Assembly: GCA_013299115.1 (NCBI GenBank)
Contig: JAAFKA010000036.1
Coordinates: forward strand, 1 to 46,848
Direction: 5' to 3'
Source of the DNA: Cytophagales bacterium
GTDB lineage: Bacteria; Bacteroidota; Bacteroidia; Cytophagales; Thermoflexibacteraceae
DNA length: 46,848 nt
The position numbers and the translations under genes are program-made. The stretch's first letter is position 1. Every line of letters begins with the position of its first letter. This document shows positions 5,948 to 46,806 of the stretch, in pieces. Under the pieces are notes generated by a model. That model saw nothing but the letters and a program-made list of their open reading frames with translations, did not search any database and was not told where the DNA came from.

Positions 5948-6058
5948 CTGTAGAACGGACTTTAGTCCGTTTTTGGCATTTTTGGGGATAAATATGTGAT
6001 TTTGGCACCACAATTTAAATTTTCATTTACAAGTAACGGACTAAAGTCCGTTCTACAG
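5948..6058. repeat. Inverted repeat with CGGACTTTAGTCCG palindromes
   Basis: The left arm CTGTAGAACGGACTTTAGTC is exactly complementary to the right arm ending ...AAGTCCGTTCTACAG, with about 62 bp between them. Each arm contains its own small palindrome. Relatives occur at 20581-20603 (CTGTAGTGCGGACTTCAGTC) and, more degenerate, at about 28957-28979 and 5814-5838, so this is a dispersed family in this genome. Confidence 0.75.
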
Positions 6059-6128
6059 ATTTCACGCAATTTACATTATTAGGAGATTTAGTATAAAAAT
6101 TATACCAAATTTACAATCTTTGTGGGTT

Positions 6129-7226
6129 ATGTTGCTCGACCTTTGGCTTTTATCGCAGTTGTTGCTGCAAATTTGTTGTCTTTTCTTGCTGGCTTACGCT
6201 GTCAAAAATGGTTTTGCTATTGTAAAAAATTGGCAACCTGCGGTGGCAGACGAAAAACAGTTGCTACTCGAACACAAAAATTATTTGATTGGGGCTATTT
6301 CCCAATTAGTTTTAGTTTTTCAGGTCTTGGGGCTTGTTTTTTTTATGCTCACCACCAACAGCCACCTGCCTCCGTTGCTAAAAGGGGCTATGTGTGCCAA
6401 TGGCGTGCTGGCTGCCAATGAATATGGTTTTCCGTTGTTGTACGTAAAAATGGGGAGTATTTTGGTGTACTTTCTATTTTTGAGTTGCAATTATTTAGAC
6501 CAACAAGAACCAGCCTATCCTTTGACTCCGCAAAAATACTGGTTTTTGTTTCCCTCTTTCTTTTTGCTTTGTGCAGATACGGCTTTGCAAGTCTTGTTTT
6601 ACGCCAACCTCAACCCCGATAGAATTGTAACCTGTTGCAGCCTTACTTTTCTGGGCGAAAAAACTACGCTGGCAAATTTAACTGAAAGCCACGAGTTTAC
6701 GACTGTTGTTGTTGGCGTGTTTGTGGGGAGTTTTGTGCTGTTGAATGTTTTGGGGTTGGTAAATTCCCAATACTTTGGTAGCAAATACTTTCCAAGTTTT
6801 AAAAACTTGGAAAGTGTATTAATAAGACTAAACTCCGCAAGGGCTTCAAGCCCTTGCGGAGTTGGGGGTAGCAGCAAACCCCAAAGCATTTATTTTCAGG
6901 CTTTTATCGTCATTCTGTACGTAAGCAGTGGAGTTTTTGCCCTGAAACATAGCTTTGTCAAGTATATTTATGGGTTGCCTACGCACCAATGTTTGTTTGA
7001 TACTTTTTTGCCCAATTACAACAGCATAGGTTTCATTATTTTTGCAGCTTATTATGGTTTGGTTGGTGGTTGGCTATTCAAAATGGTTTGGGTGGCTTAC
7101 AAAAAGCATTTGCAAATTGTCCATTCTTACAACCCAACTTATTTGGAGATTTTTCTATTCGTTTGCCTGTGGCTAAGTTTTGGGTTGCCTGTAGGGTATT
7201 GGTGGGCGTGGGAAGGGAGTTTGTAA
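6129..7226 (+). CDS. Polytopic membrane protein carrying two in-frame palindromic repeats
   Basis: 365 residues with about eight predicted membrane helices (about 5-27, 48-75, 97-120, 134-155, 190-212, 253-270, 295-320, 338-362). I do not recognise a named family; a segment with CANGVLAANEYGFPLLYVKM and the CC pair after the fourth helix look conserved-type. The most striking feature is residues about 220-245, between helices five and six, which are encoded by two adjacent perfect DNA palindromes (6787-6815 and 6831-6862). They read through without a stop and give a low-complexity hydrophilic insert. The ATG at 6129 was preferred over an upstream TTG (6120) because helix one starts right after it. 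It is 99 bp upstream of the TPR gene on the same strand. Function unknown. Confidence 0.7.
   Translation: MLLDLWLLSQLLLQICCLFLLAYAVKNGFAIVKNWQPAVADEKQLLLEHKNYLIGAISQLVLVFQVLGLVFFMLTTNSHLPPLLKGAMCANGVLAANEYGFPLLYVKMGSILVYFLFLSCNYLDQQEPAYPLTPQKYWFLFPSFFLLCADTALQVLFYANLNPDRIVTCCSLTFLGEKTTLANLTESHEFTTVVVGVFVGSFVLLNVLGLVNSQYFGSKYFPSFKNLESVLIRLNSARASSPCGVGGSSKPQSIYFQAFIVILYVSSGVFALKHSFVKYIYGLPTHQCLFDTFLPNYNSIGFIIFAAYYGLVGGWLFKMVWVAYKKHLQIVHSYNPTYLEIFLFVCLWLSFGLPVGYWWAWEGSL
6787..6862. repeat. Two perfect palindromes inside a coding sequence
   Basis: 6787-6815 pairs ACTTTCCAAG with CTTGGAAAGT around a TTTTAAAAA centre. 6831-6862 pairs AACTCCGCAAGGGCTT with AAGCCCTTGCGGAGTT. The first belongs to the same family as the intergenic palindrome at 28912-28944 and the in-gene one at 24777-24809. 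Neither introduces a stop in the frame used by the host gene. Confidence 0.85.
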
Positions 7227-14663: not shown

Positions 14664-14679
14664 ATTAAGTTAGTGGCAA

Positions 14680-14710
14680 GCAATAACATTTCTCAAAGAA
14701 ATGTTATTGC
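14680..14710. repeat. Perfect 14-bp-arm hairpin before the AIPR gene
   Basis: GCAATAACATTTCT, loop CAA, AGAAATGTTATTGC. It sits 17 bp upstream of the AIPR start codon, in its presumed leader, where it could affect transcription or translation. No T-run follows on the minus strand, so it is not a typical terminator. Confidence 0.7.
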
Positions 14711-14739
14711 TATGTTAGTTGTTACCCAAATTAAAAATT

Positions 14740-24705: not shown

Positions 24706-26952
24706 ATGACACCACATAAACCCACCTTCCAAGAAGTTCGTAATAACCTCTTGAAAAAAGCAAAAGAACAGCAAACAAACCTACTAAGTCTTAAAGACTT
24801 AGTAGGTTTTAATACTTTCCAAACCGCCGAAAAAATCAACATCAAGCCTGTTTTTACGCACAAAGACGTAGAAAATGCAGAGCATCTCAACTTTTCGGCA
24901 GGAACAGCACCTTATTTGCGAGGACCTTACGCAAGTATGTACCTTACCAAACCCTGGACAATTCGCCAATATGCAGGATTTTCGACAGCCGAAGAAAGCA
25001 ATGCTTTTTATCGGAGAAACCTTGCAGCAGGACAAATGGGTTTGTCCGTTGCCTTCGATTTGGCAACGCACAGAGGTTATGATTCCGACCACCCAAGAGT
25101 AGTGGGAGATGTGGGCAAGGCTGGCGTGGCTATTGACAGTGTGGAGGATATGAAAATCCTTTTTGACCAAATTCCCCTCGATAAAATGTCAGTTTCGATG
25201 ACAATGAATGGGGCAGTATTGCCAATTATGGCGTTTTATATTGTGGCAGCCGAAGAACAAGGCGTAAAACCCGAATTGCTAAGTGGCACAATTCAAAATG
25301 ATATTTTGAAGGAATTTATGGTTCGCAATACCTACATTTATCCGCCATTGCCAAGTATGCGAATTATTGCCGATATTTTTTCTTATACAGCCCAAAATAT
25401 GCCCAAATTCAATTCCATTTCTATTTCTGGGTATCACATTCAGGAGGCAGGCGGAAGTGCGGATATTGAATTGGCTTATACGTTGGCAGATGGTTTGGAA
25501 TATTTGCGAACAGGCATTGCTGCGGGTTTGGATATTGACGATTTTGCTCCTCGTTTGTCGTTTTTTTGGGGAATTGGAATGAATTATTTTATGGAAATTG
25601 CCAAAATGCGTGCAGGTCGGTTGTTGTGGGCAAAAATCGTGAAACAGTTTAATCCAAAAGATGCAAAATCAATGGCATTGCGTACACATTGCCAAACTTC
25701 GGGCTGGTCCTTGACCGAACAAGACCCTTTTAACAATGTGGCACGTACTACGATTGAGGCTTTGGCTGCGGTTTTGGGTGGCACACAGTCTTTGCATACC
25801 AACGCCTTAGATGAAGCTATTGCTCTGCCGACTGATTTTTCTGCAAAAATTGCACGTGATACGCAGCTTTTTATCCAAAAAGAAACGGGAGTTTGTAAGT
25901 CTGTTGATGCTTGGGGAGGTTCGTATTATGTGGAATATTTAACGCAACAATTAGTGGAAAAGGCGTGGGCTTTGATTGAGGAAGTGGAAAAATTGGGTGG
26001 AATGTCAAAGGCAATAGAAACAGGTTTGCCAAAAATGCGGATTGAGGAAGTTGCAGCCCGAAAACAAGCCCGAATTGACGCAGGAAAAGATACGATTGTG
26101 GGCGTAAACAAATTTCAAACAGATGAAAAAACAGAGATAGAATTGTTAGAAGTTGATAATACGGCAGTAAGAAATTCGCAACTTGCACGTTTAGAACAAG
26201 TTAAACAAAATAGAGATAATGAAAAAGTGAAGGAGGCTTTGCGGAAAATTACCCTTGCGTGTAGCCCCCCAACCCCCGAAGGGGGAGTTTTTACTCCCTC
26301 CCCTTCGGGGAGGGTTGGGGTGGGGCTTGTTCCCCCTTCGGGGGTTAGGGGGCTTGGCGGTGGCAATTTATTGCAATTAGCCATAGAAGCAGCCCGTTTG
26401 CGTGCTACCTTAGGCGAAATTTCTGATGCAATGGAAGAAGTTTTTGGCAGACATAAAGCTGTAATTCGTTCTATTTCAGGGGTTTATGCAGGAGAAGCAG
26501 GCACAGACGAAAATTTCCGCAAAGCAAAAGAAATGGCAGATAAATTTGCGGAACTCGAAGGTCGACGTCCTCGAATTATGATTGCCAAAATGGGGCAAGA
26601 CGGACACGACAGAGGTGCAAAAGTGATTGCAACAAGTTTTGCAGACTTAGGTTTTGATGTGGATATGGGTTCTTTATTCCAAACTCCCGAAGAAGTGGCA
26701 CGACAAGCAGCCGAAAATGATGTGCATTTGATTGGTGCAAGCAGTTTGGCAGCAGGACACAAAACTCTCATTCCTCAACTGATTGCGGAACTCAAAAAAA
26801 TAGGTCGTGAGGATATTGCAGTGATTGCAGGTGGCGTAATTCCGCCAAAAGACTACGAATTTTTGTATCAGGCTGGGGTAATTGGTGTTTTTGGACCTGG
26901 TACGGTGATTTCGGTGGCTGCACAGGAGATTTTGGCAAGATTGCAGAATTAA
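24706..26952 (+). CDS. scpA: Methylmalonyl-CoA mutase, carrying two in-frame palindromic insertions
   Basis: 748 residues against about 710-720 usual. It interconverts methylmalonyl-CoA and succinyl-CoA with adenosylcobalamin. The TIM-barrel domain (about 50-510) shows [52 protein letters not shown] and [16 protein letters not shown]. The C-terminal B12 domain (about 615-745) has [13 protein letters not shown] with the cobalt-ligating His near 631. Extra length comes from two DNA palindromes read in frame: 24777-24809 (about residues 25-35) in the N-terminal arm and 26263-26354 (about 520-550, SPPTPEGGV... GVRGLGG) in the interdomain linker. It sits 12 bp after the HEPN gene, and fragments of its own start are repeated twice upstream. 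No small subunit or MeaB gene adjoins it. Confidence 0.93.
24727..24756 (+). repeat. Native copy of the mutase-start segment repeated upstream
   Basis: TTCCAAGAAGTTCGTAATAA then CCTCTTGAAA, codons 8-17 of the mutase gene. Relics of the same segment head both 130-bp repeats (23491 and 23895). In the relics the frame is no longer used. Confidence 0.8.
24777..24809. repeat. 33-bp perfect palindrome inside the mutase gene
   Basis: AAACCTACTAAGTC and GACTTAGTAGGTTT surround TTAAA. The 33-bp length adds exactly eleven codons and keeps the frame. It has the same AAAC-arm-TAAGT/CTT-arm-GTTT plan as the intergenic palindrome at 28912-28944. Confidence 0.85.
26263..26354. repeat. GC-rich inverted repeat inside the mutase gene
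   Basis: The outer arms are AGCCCCCCAACCCCCGAAGG then GGGA, and their complement TCCCCC...GGGGGTTAGGGGGCT; an inner CCCTCCCCTTCGGGGAGGG lies between. Local G+C is far above the roughly 40% around it. Related copies lie at 35433-35500 and, partially, at 37570-37594. Confidence 0.85.
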
Positions 26953-28196: not shown

Positions 28197-28310
28197 TTGT
28201 CTAAAGTGATTTCGGTTTCTTAAAACCGAAATTCGTTTTGGTTTTGAGAAACCAAAACCACAGTAATTTGTCTAACGTGATTTCGGTTTTTTAAAACCGA
28301 AACCACAGTA
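28197..28310. repeat. Pair of direct repeats with AAACCGAAA palindromes
   Basis: TTTGTCTAAAGTGATTTCGG...TTTTAACCGAAA-like text occurs at 28197-28231 and again, as TTTGTCTAACGTGATTTCGG, at 28267-28304. Each carries the palindrome TTTCGGTTT-TTAA-AACCGAAA. Between them is TTTTGGTTT...AAACCAAAA. No gene lies in 28152-28353. Confidence 0.75.
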
Positions 28311-28911: not shown

Positions 28912-28944
28912 AAACTTTCTAAGTTTTAAAAACTTAGAAAGTTT
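28912..28944. terminator. 33-bp palindrome between convergent genes, probable bidirectional terminator
   Basis: AAACTTTCTAAGTTT and AAACTTAGAAAGTTT around TTA. It lies 7 bp after the DUF4178 stop and 44 bp after the recA stop. A short degenerate relative of the 5948 repeat (CAGACTGAAGTCTATGCTACAG) follows at about 28958-28979. Confidence 0.7.
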
Positions 28945-35321: not shown

Positions 35322-37775
35322 ATGTCCTATTTAGCTATTAGAGAAGAAGAACTCAAAAATAAAATAGCCCAAAATTATTTTGGCGAATTTGACTGCACGC
35401 AAATTGTGGGGAATGTGGATTTTTGTGTGAGTAGCCCCCTACCCCCCAAAGGGGGAACTGACGAGATTACGTCAACTCCCCCTTTGGGGGCTGGGGGGCT
35501 TTGGGCAGAAGCCAAAAAAGGCGTATCAGACGTTTACAAATCTGTGGTGCAGTTGATATTGACCATTGGCAAGGCGAGGACTTTTGACAAGGTGCTGCCT
35601 CCGCCTTTTTTGGGTGCTTTTGATGCCGAAAAAATTGCTTTTTTGCCTTACAATGCCATTCAGGAGGTTTTTTACCAAAATGATTTTAACTGGAATGTTG
35701 CCCCTTCTAACCACGAAACCAAAGAGTTTAAGCAAGTTTATGACAAGGTAAAAACCACGATTGAGAACGAAACTTTGCTGTTTTACTACCAAAAAGACGA
35801 CCAAGAACTGCGTGAATTTATCAAGACAAATTTTGTGGTTGGCAACGTGGCAACTTCAAAAGTTAGAATTGACAAAAACAATTTCATTACCATTTATACC
35901 AAGTGGTTGGCTGCGGTCAAGCCCACAATCGTATTGAATTGGGAAATTGCTAAGAAAAATGGAATTATTGACGCAGACTTTTATTTGGCAGATTTGCTTT
36001 CCTCAGAAAATCAAAGTCTGAAAGATACTTTATATGTGTTGTTGAAAAAAGATTACTATGAATTTGAAAAAACTCTCAACGAAATGGGATTTTTTGACCT
36101 CAAACGAACTTCTTTCAACGACAAACAAAAAGCACACACTCAATTTTGGAATAAATATGAAAGACCTCCGAAAGAACAATATTGGGATTATATTGTAGAA
36201 CGTAGAGATTTGCTTGTTCCGCAAGACGTGAGGGAAAGAAAAGGCAGCTTTTTTACACCGCAGATTTGGGTGGAGTTGTCGCAAAAATACCTAAGTGATG
36301 TGTTAGGAGAAGATTGGCAAGATGAATATTACATTTGGGATTGTGCAGCAGGCACAGGCAATTTGCTAACAGGATTGATAAATAAAGACCATATCTGGGC
36401 TTCTACGCTTGATAGGCAAGACGTGGACGTGATGAAAGACAGGATACAAAACGGGGCAAATTTGTGGGAAAAACAAGTTTTTCAGTTTGATTTCCTCAAT
36501 GATAGTTTTGATAAATTGCCAAAAGAATTGCAAGCAATTATCAACAATCCCGAAAAACGCAAGAAATTAGTGGTTTATATCAATCCGCCTTATGCAGAGG
36601 CAGACAACAGGCGAGGCGAAGGGAGAAGTGGCGTAGCTGTTTCGGCTATTCATCAAAAGTATTCCGAAAAAATGGGCTACACCAAACGAGAACTATATGT
36701 GCAGTTTTTGACAAGAATTTATATTGAAATTGGTGGCTGTAAAATTGCAGAATTTTCAAAACTAAAAGCATTGCAAGCACCTAAATTTATTGAGTTTCGT
36801 AACTTTTTTAAGGCAAAATTAGAAAAATGTTTTATTATTCCTGCTCGCACTTTTGATAATGTCAAAGGACAGTTTCCTATTGGTTTCAAAGTGTGGGATA
36901 CGGACAAAAAAGAGGACTTTTTACACATTCAGGCTGATGCTTATGATGAAAAAGAGAAGTTTTTTGCTGTCAAAGAGATTTGGGCTTACGACAATTTTAA
37001 ATTTATCAATGACTGGGTAAAAACATTCAGAAAAACAAACTCCGAATCTATTGCTACCATTATTGGCGTGGGCAGTGATTTTCAAAATCAACGATTGGTG
37101 CGAATAGAAAAACCGAATATGGAAGTGCCAGCCGATAATCATCATTGGCAAATTACAAAAGATAACCTCATACAGTCTGCTATTTACTATGTAGTGCGAA
37201 AAACTATTGCAGCCACGTGGTTTAATGACCGTGACCAATTTCTCTACCCCAACCCAACGTGGGAAACCGACAAAGAATTTCACAACAATTGTTTAACTTA
37301 TACCTTGTTCAATAACAATATCAAGGCAAAACAAGGCACCAATCATTGGATACCGTTTACAGAGGCGGAAGTAGGTAGCAAAGACAAGTTTGAAAGCAAA
37401 TTTATGGCTCATTTTATTGCGGGCAAGCTAAAAGATGCTAAATCAACAGCACTTTTTGAGAAAGAGCAAACTACCAAAAAAGAACCTTTGGAATTTTCGG
37501 CAGAGGCAAAAGCAGTTTTTTCAGCAGGAAAAGAATTATGGAAATATTACCACAAAACCATTCAGAATTCTCCCCCAGCAGAGGGCGGGGGGGCTAATGC
37601 TTCGTTTTATGACATTCGAGAGTATTTTCAGGAAAGAAACCCAGCAGGCAAAATGAACAACAAAAGTGCAAACGAAAAATACAATGAGTTGTTGGCTGCT
37701 TTAAGAGAAAGTTTGGATATTTTGGCAAAGAAAATTGAGCCGAAAATTTATGAACATGGGTTTTTGAAAAGGTAG
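35322..37775 (+). CDS. Large N6-adenine DNA methyltransferase, with in-frame palindromic insertions
   Basis: 817 residues. The SAM motif I is DCAAGTGNLL (about 341-350), preceded by RERKGSFFTPQIWVELSQKY as in type I/IIG methylases. The catalytic motif IV is NPPYAEAD (about 421-428). Long segments before and after could hold target recognition or a nuclease, but I see no clear PD-(D/E)XK. No separate restriction gene is adjacent; a bifunctional or solitary methylase is possible, and phage-defence roles are typical for such proteins. Residues about 38-60 (SPLPPKGGTDEITSTPPLGA then GGL) are encoded by a GC-rich inverted repeat (35433-35500), and residues about 750-758 (PPAEGGGA) by a partial copy. 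Both are read in frame. Confidence 0.8.
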   Translation: MSYLAIREEELKNKIAQNYFGEFDCTQIVGNVDFCVSSPLPPKGGTDEITSTPPLGAGGLWAEAKKGVSDVYKSVVQLILTIGKARTFDKVLPPPFLGAFDAEKIAFLPYNAIQEVFYQNDFNWNVAPSNHETKEFKQVYDKVKTTIENETLLFYYQKDDQELREFIKTNFVVGNVATSKVRIDKNNFITIYTKWLAAVKPTIVLNWEIAKKNGIIDADFYLADLLSSENQSLKDTLYVLLKKDYYEFEKTLNEMGFFDLKRTSFNDKQKAHTQFWNKYERPPKEQYWDYIVERRDLLVPQDVRERKGSFFTPQIWVELSQKYLSDVLGEDWQDEYYIWDCAAGTGNLLTGLINKDHIWASTLDRQDVDVMKDRIQNGANLWEKQVFQFDFLNDSFDKLPKELQAIINNPEKRKKLVVYINPPYAEADNRRGEGRSGVAVSAIHQKYSEKMGYTKRELYVQFLTRIYIEIGGCKIAEFSKLKALQAPKFIEFRNFFKAKLEKCFIIPARTFDNVKGQFPIGFKVWDTDKKEDFLHIQADAYDEKEKFFAVKEIWAYDNFKFINDWVKTFRKTNSESIATIIGVGSDFQNQRLVRIEKPNMEVPADNHHWQITKDNLIQSAIYYVVRKTIAATWFNDRDQFLYPNPTWETDKEFHNNCLTYTLFNNNIKAKQGTNHWIPFTEAEVGSKDKFESKFMAHFIAGKLKDAKSTALFEKEQTTKKEPLEFSAEAKAVFSAGKELWKYYHKTIQNSPPAEGGGANASFYDIREYFQERNPAGKMNNKSANEKYNELLAALRESLDILAKKIEPKIYEHGFLKR
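35433..35500. repeat. GC-rich inverted repeat inside the methyltransferase gene
   Basis: AGCCCCCTACCCCCCAAAGG then GGGAACT, a spacer, and AACTCCCCCTTTGGGGGCTG then GGGGGCT. It is the same family as 26263-26354. A partial copy, CTCCCCCAGCAGAGGGCGGG then GGGGCT, lies at 37570-37594 in the same gene. Confidence 0.85.
37570..37594. repeat. Partial copy of the GC-rich repeat near the methyltransferase C-terminus
   Basis: CTCCCCCAGCAGAGGGCGGG then GGGCT, a degenerate single arm with a GGGGG run. It encodes PPAEGGG in frame. Confidence 0.6.
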
Positions 37776-46672: not shown

Positions 46673-46715
46673 TGCCGTCAAACAGCAAGACCTTTCTTTG
46701 CTTTTGGCACAAAAC

Positions 46716-46744
46716 TTATCAGACACTTTCAAAGTGTCTGATAA
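46716..46744. repeat. Perfect palindrome in the leader of the last gene
   Basis: TTATCAGACACTTT and AAAGTGTCTGATAA around C. It is preceded by AAAC, which fits the AAAC-arm-arm-GTTT palindrome family seen at 24777 and 28912. It lies between the promoter at 46640 and the start at 46807, so it would be a stem in the leader RNA. Confidence 0.75.
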
Positions 46745-46806
46745 ATACTTCTTATCAAACAGATAAGTAGTTCTCTTTTATTCATCTTTTAAACCTTCAT
46801 GAACTC

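Follow-up and report, generated by a model that had tools for sequence, protein, structure and literature searches.

The stretch of DNA analysed here (the window: 46,848 nt, contig JAAFKA010000036.1 of Cytophagales bacterium assembly GCA_013299115.1) carries on its forward strand a gene for a putative membrane protein of 368 aa (6120–7226). The open reading frame of this gene (6120–7223, 368 codons) contains two neighbouring palindromes, both read in frame, as a previous sequence-only reading of the locus had stated. Searches of Pfam and NCBIfam gave the protein no match at E ≤ 1. The first palindrome (6787–6815) is perfect, as first described, with 14-bp arms around one centre base over 29 bp, and forms the core of a 33-bp unit (6785–6817; A-N...N-T around the core) that is read as YFPSFKNLES and belongs to what we hereafter call family A. 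The second palindrome, originally placed at 6831–6862, is likewise perfect but ends one base later, yielding a 33-bp family B palindrome with 16-bp arms (6831–6863) read as NSARASSPCGV, a minority reading frame for this family. Palindromic elements are given without strand throughout. Both palindromes are real and lie beyond chance expectation: the window has 17 stems of at least 10 bp, against only 0–3 in each of ten first-order shuffles, in which the longest stem measured 9–12 bp.

The palindrome segment is flanked by hydrophobic stretches at residues 190–216 and 256–280, in keeping with the suggested location between membrane helices, a placement that derives from a sliding hydropathy average rather than a topology prediction. 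The same average, however, makes residues 218–255 only weakly hydrophilic (mean −0.30), less so than the hydrophilic insert initially described. A match to the window gene was identified in 16 of 59 genomes, its own included, and the alignment of oriented loci from the 15 relatives confirmed the anticipated absence of residues ~220–245: all 15 homologues lack the segment containing both palindromes, although the missing stretch comprises ~33–40 residues and not 26. Since these homologues are just 31–49% identical over their best segment, the alignment reveals absence of the segment in relatives but no recent event. A separate related-locus search with the window protein returned no relative.

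Both palindromes belong to families dispersed through the genome, in line with the earlier suggestion of a multicopy palindrome in coding and non-coding DNA. Family A (CTTTCCAAGTTTTNAAAACTTGGAAAG) is present at 43 places with at most 3 mismatches, as compared with 0 for the reversed control, and family B at 14 places with one pattern (at most 3 mismatches) and 18 with another, both families having copies inside and outside ORFs. A broader family A pattern (at most 2 mismatches) identifies 44 places in this genome and 31 in its genus mate (G001), and is present in 9 of 59 genomes, the remaining seven having 1 to 10. Family B occupies 28 places in the genus mate and is present in 3 of 19 genomes. 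The sequence examined from this genome includes 42 distinct copies of family A and 21 of family B; like REPs, these are palindromes of 20–40 bp in many dispersed copies, here as 33-bp units. Within the window, an intergenic 33-bp variant of family A (28912–28944) shares the plan of the first palindrome, as had been noticed, its changes being compensated in both arms. Two further intergenic 33-bp palindromes with A...T ends lie at 14679–14711 and 46714–46746, the latter perfect over 46716–46744, and a 33-bp palindrome of another family (24777–24809) is read in frame within a methylmalonyl-CoA mutase gene (24706–26949), close to its N-terminal end.

The size of these units is shared between families of unrelated sequence. 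We collected 41 odd-length palindromes, with stems of 11 or more and loops of 5 or fewer, from the window and 20 stretches not chosen for palindromes (~447 kb). Counted from the centre, position −16 is A and position +16 is T in 35 of them, compared to 3824 of 40000 random centres (9.6%), and only 7 have an A/T pair at position 17, with pairing falling from 0.88 at position 16 to 0.34 at position 17. The genus mate displays the same but weaker boundary (A 0.82, T 0.77 of 78), and the boundary at 16 was not seen in the 43 even-length palindromes of both genomes. The 33-bp plan fits all six odd palindromes of the window with stems of at least 14 and none of the five with stems of 9 or 10. Family A flanks have A at −3 in 80 of 84 sides and at −1 in 81 of 84, with a variable base in between, no other strongly conserved base within 10 of the core and no GTAG/CGTC tag. 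The outer A is conserved in family B (47/50 sides in this genome, 76/78 in the genus mate), in families D (37/38), F (16/16) and H (18/18) of this genome and, at the matching place, in 9 of 10 sides of the small family I. Measured to the conserved outer base, families A, B, D, F, H and I each total 33 bp; nine family patterns were tried for this boundary, one of which matched 0 copies. As 33 bp correspond to 11 codons, the reading frame would survive a clean insertion. The window also contains tandem clusters of shorter hairpins (723–980 and 28209–28302; e.g. CTTTCGGTTG...CAACCGAAAG), and those of them that were tested do not match the 33-bp plan.

Using a simple caller that retains the longest ORFs of at least 150 aa, we located 14 of the 42 distinct family A copies inside ORFs, 25 outside and 3 at ORF ends, while in the genus mate none of 26 copies (31 places known) is inside an ORF (p=0.0005). 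Family B has 8 of 21 copies inside ORFs, 10 outside and 3 at ends, and 8 of 33 inside ORFs in the genus mate. In-gene copies favour one frame, which is used by 11 of 14 family A copies (FPSLKDLES and variants; p=0.0007 against one third) and by 13 of 16 family B copies from both genomes (TPQGLEALAGL and variants; p=0.0001), p values that count tandem, and hence non-independent, copies. The host genes are unrelated and include isoleucyl-, alanyl- and valyl-tRNA synthetases (IleRS, AlaRS and ValRS; all over NCBIfam cut-offs), IcmF (1494.4 bits for a cut-off of 1500) and, as identified by Pfam, a helicase-like AAA protein, a glycosyltransferase, a lantibiotic dehydratase, a FAD oxidase and methylmalonyl-CoA mutase. 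The helicase-like gene contains two in-frame tandem sets, one of three family A copies (period 42 bp) and one of four copies from another family (period 48 bp); these periods span 14 and 16 codons and are multiples of three. Protein-level convergence, that is, selection on the peptide alone, was considered and rejected on account of the perfect DNA symmetry, which differs between families at one site, and of the reading of the palindrome in other frames elsewhere (NSARASSPCGV, LSKSLRLGK).

Copies inside genes are nonetheless a minority: across 400 kb not chosen for palindromes, 85% of which is coding, 4 of 39 palindromes fall in ORFs, indicating that coding DNA is strongly depleted of them. 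This mostly intergenic distribution is what would be expected if the palindromes were host transcription terminators or protein-binding sites under selection, with the in-gene copies being incidental. Terminator function, however, predicts neither a unit fixed at 33 bp whatever the arm sequence, nor in-frame copies in aminoacyl-tRNA synthetases, nor the linkage described below to genes resembling REP-associated tyrosine transposases (RAYT-like genes), and we regard this explanation as improbable.

The best 9 of 12 matches at E ≤ 1 in this genome were retained as RAYT-like ORFs, dropping one with stops and two at E 0.33 and 0.40 and leaving two IS200-like matches (C35, C20) outside the count. 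None of the RAYT-like matches reaches the NCBIfam cut-off of 80 bits, the best scoring 70.3. The RAYT-like gene at C16:77682–78389 (NCBIfam REP_Tyr_transpos 56.8 bits, cut-off 80; Pfam Y1_Tnp 18.2, cut-off 23) has family A palindromes on both sides, in tandem on one, and encodes two A-type copies in its own frame (LSKFQKLEK and LSKSLRLGK), located after NHFH (the HUH motif) and before YIHNNP, where we presume the catalytic tyrosine to be. Palindromes are also present on both sides of the RAYT-like genes at C11 (TTACCTATCGGGTGGCT), C74:79463 (AAACCTTATAAGGTCTT) and C28 (TTGTCCGACACCTT), so that these four genes have four different flanking palindromes, the dispersed copies of which were counted genome-wide for family A and seen in the stretches examined for the others. 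Direct and inverted 13-mers common to both 500-bp flanks were found for 7 of 9 RAYT-like ORFs and 2 of 123 controls (p=1e-8), the controls being ORFs of 150–300 aa from control stretches with flanks taken from start codons, as opposed to stop-to-stop for the RAYT-like ORFs; at least one kind of repeat is shared between the flanks of 22 of the 123 controls. No repeat is shared between the 500-bp flanks of the RAYT-like ORF in L075 and the truncated one in L077, and no RAYT was found for family B. The genus mate has five RAYT-like matches, and both of the two examined are flanked by GTAG-type repeats.

Several further features of these loci were observed. The tandem copies near the C16 RAYT-like gene were considered as a CRISPR-like array, a possibility rejected given their period of 46–49 bp and near-identical short linkers in place of varied spacers. 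Near the RAYT array lie additional, incomplete copies of the IcmF gene from its C-terminal portion (G000:C16:77158–77640; L052 near 5710), one of them interrupted by a palindrome replacing some tens of bases. In the window, intergenic GTAG-type REP hairpins (GTAGAACGGACTTTAGTCCGTT) are located upstream of the membrane-protein gene, at 5950–5971 and 6035–6056; in the genus mate, two RAYT-like genes are flanked by this repeat as well.

This genome hence contains several palindrome families built on one 33-bp plan and dispersed between and inside genes, with family A also surrounding a RAYT-like gene. The linkage to a RAYT-like gene and the in-frame copies in unrelated genes support the original suggestion that a mobile palindrome entered the window gene. 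We consider it likely that these elements are short, non-autonomous mobile palindromes of the RAYT-linked REP/TIR-like kind, inserting frame-neutrally into tolerant loops. From the linkage, we infer that a RAYT, an HUH/tyrosine single-strand transposase, would recognize the hairpin on single-stranded DNA and insert the palindrome without duplicating the target. A 33-bp insertion would add 11 codons and keep the frame, allowing copies to survive in tolerant protein loops, mainly in the frame that gives a tolerable peptide, and the window gene would have received two adjacent units in a single loop between membrane helices. No two near-identical genomes differing in the presence of a family A or B copy were found.

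Other inverted repeats accompany the 33-bp palindromes. A GC-rich composite inverted-repeat element, designated family E, lies in frame in the mutase gene of the window (26262–26355), and the family occurs again at 35442–35490, with peptides resembling SPLTPEGG...TPPSGVGGL. Family E falls mostly within ORFs (31 of 33 merged matches in the stretches examined from this genome) and its pattern yields 97 forward and 87 reverse matches here, and 14 and 5 in the genus mate; some copies appear nested in others. A different arrangement, in which a repeated core (GATGACATC or TCCGACACC) is enclosed by outer arms that differ between copies (stems of 28–39 bp), was observed at L289:16226–16296, L291:11844–11908, L292:17605–17685, L297:17335–17391 and L299:14939–15003, and also in stretches of the genus mate. 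The variable outer arms give the impression that elements had entered the loops of hairpins or that a flank had been copied in inverted orientation.

Comparison with the genus mate, in which AlaRS is 93–95% and IleRS 81–83% identical, revealed that conserved genes of both genomes often carry elements at the same site, but of different families (the nearest named AlaRS among the matches listed is that of Thermoflexibacter ruber, at 67%). The sequence examined from this genome contains 54 in-ORF element clusters, 13 of them comparable with the genus mate. At the 8 sites where each of the two protein flanks reaches 80% identity, the genus mate has an element of another family in six, none in two and the same family in none. 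The six comparable clusters among the 14 in-ORF clusters of the genus mate, which are the same six sites, all face another family. The AlaRS and IleRS sites hold family A here and family B in the genus mate, two sites in IcmF and one in ValRS hold family E here and family B there, and the mutase palindrome at 24777–24809 faces AACCCCGCAAGGGTTCTGAACCC... in the genus mate. Both empty sites hold family E here, one in ValRS and the other in the mutase gene (26262–26355). This count leaves out 5 of the 13 comparable sites, in which at least one flank is 40–73% identical; they include the window gene, devoid of elements in the genus mate, and the helicase-like gene, which has another GC-rich inverted repeat there.

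Given that long-block synteny with the genus mate is scant (65 blastn matches of at least 300 bp, mean identity 74%), nucleotide flanks were compared separately. Six palindromes of this genome have both flanks in the genus mate. Another element lies opposite three of them, two within genes and the third upstream of AlaRS, where a 35-bp palindrome stands against an inverted pair of other hairpins; a fourth, in a partial mutase copy, has a counterpart without palindrome. L052:14261 and 14310 were dropped from this comparison because their flank matches were neighbouring repeat copies.

These matched sites may be explained by in-place exchange, whereby an occupied site is preferentially re-used and its resident palindrome replaced by one of another family, so that addresses persist while identities turn over, possibly because the transposase, or template switching, targets the hairpin itself. 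Besides the six of eight sites with another family and none with the same, and the six of six from the side of the genus mate, this reading is favoured by site boundaries that agree within a few bases by inspection, by the differing elements upstream of AlaRS and by the two IcmF sites, which carry different elements in three genomes: in a member of another genus (G002), both are occupied by palindromes of yet another sequence, one of them imperfect. The palindrome loop in AlaRS and IleRS also has roughly the length of its counterpart in the closest outgroups, other outgroups having shorter ones, which hints at replacement and not addition; these two sites resemble a replacement as much as a clean insertion of 33 bp, and in this respect argue against simple insertion as the best explanation. 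On the other hand, the boundaries are not base-exact, an outgroup (G010) has a palindrome at neither IcmF site, and the sample is small, comprising six sites in five genes from stretches that were in part selected because one genome carried an A or B copy, irrespective of the content of the other. The AlaRS, IleRS, mutase and IcmF loops, moreover, vary in length among outgroups without palindromes and could have been filled independently. On balance, we view in-place exchange as a tentative reading, somewhat less probable than its negation. Still more speculative, and in our judgement unlikely, is its extension to one machinery serving many families of identical 33-bp architecture, with occupied addresses re-used by in-place exchange in coding and non-coding DNA alike.

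Independent insertion offers the more modest explanation: with many insertions per lineage and few tolerant loops, selection by itself would lead to shared addresses. The elements do fall in loops that are of variable length among outgroups (8 such sites in AlaRS over 11 outgroups, 19 in IleRS over 12, 4 in the mutase over 11 and 4 in IcmF over 2), at two sites the genus mate has no element, and the 41 odd-length palindromes in ~447 kb denote a high insertion pressure. Yet chance filling of tolerant loops sits uneasily with the lack of any comparable site holding the same family in both genomes, with none of the six comparable in-gene sites of the genus mate being empty in this genome, and with the three-genome coincidence at the two IcmF sites. 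We assign independent insertion alone about an even chance. As a separate observation, the IleRS loop occupied by palindromes here carries, in the member of another genus (L125/L139), an unrelated and far larger in-frame insertion of more than 100 residues.

Whichever route fills these sites, insertion of frame-neutral, RAYT-linked palindromes is the reading we favour, and a fixed, frame-keeping length provides a simple rule by which selfish DNA may enter essential genes without breaking them. What appears to be new is this frame-neutral length, common to several families, together with the way in which the identity of elements turns over while their sites in conserved genes stay fixed; a literature search found no account of 33-bp palindromes inside Cytophagales genes, nor of in-place exchange. 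Related genomes, with their matched sites, provide a testable case for discriminating fresh insertion from mutual replacement, and the link to RAYT-like genes puts an enzyme amenable to study beside repeats of a kind whose spread has mostly been inferred. In-place exchange, if true, would amount to a frame-neutral cassette system repeatedly rewriting 11-residue loops of essential enzymes.

Among known systems, the sequence-only reading had invoked Rickettsia palindromic elements, which (PMC10969869, PMC3733652) the present elements resemble in being inserted in frame in unrelated genes (here AlaRS, IleRS and the helicase-like, glycosyltransferase and dehydratase genes), with a favoured frame and tolerated by the protein. 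The comparison holds only as an analogy: the Rickettsia elements are ~150 bp long (PMC10969869), whereas those reported here are 33 bp long, reside in Bacteroidota and have a linked RAYT-like gene. PARCELs share coding sequence with dyad symmetry, in-frame copies and spread within a genome, but consist of tandem amphipathic motifs of 25 residues (PMC2996958), while the units here are of 11 codons and mostly single. GTAG/CGTC-tagged REPs have an unpaired tag at the hairpin end, where families B, D, F and H end in a conserved A...T. In TnpAREP subclass 2.4, repeats are inserted in frame into the gene of the transposase, between its HUH and Y motifs; subclass 2.6, from Bacteroidetes, has atypical flanking structures with copies elsewhere (PMC6006769). 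The C16 gene shows the former trait and the present host and repeats the latter, a likeness of features, but families A and B lack the GT[AG]G foot and have copies in many unrelated host genes. The closest likeness is to the TIRtrons and TIRYTs of PMC3733652, where RAYT-type genes are flanked by non-GTAG repeats, some of them self-complementary, with dispersed copies. Here too, four RAYT-like genes (C16, C11, C74:79463 and C28) have a dispersed non-GTAG repeat on both sides, that of C16 being self-complementary; family A copies are dispersed, single or clustered, and several families coexist in the genome, different ones beside different transposase genes. The same paper offers a precedent for shared sites, in different REPs near the same recB site in two Xanthomonas species. 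Relative to TIRtrons as described there, the differences are the single 33-bp plan with A...T ends across the families examined and the frequent presence of A, B and E copies within conserved genes. The elements thus fit the published TIRtron description and, in part, the in-frame insertions of TnpAREP subclass 2.4; by analogy, they function like Rickettsia palindromic elements without being one of them, their closer relation being to the repeats of TIRtrons.
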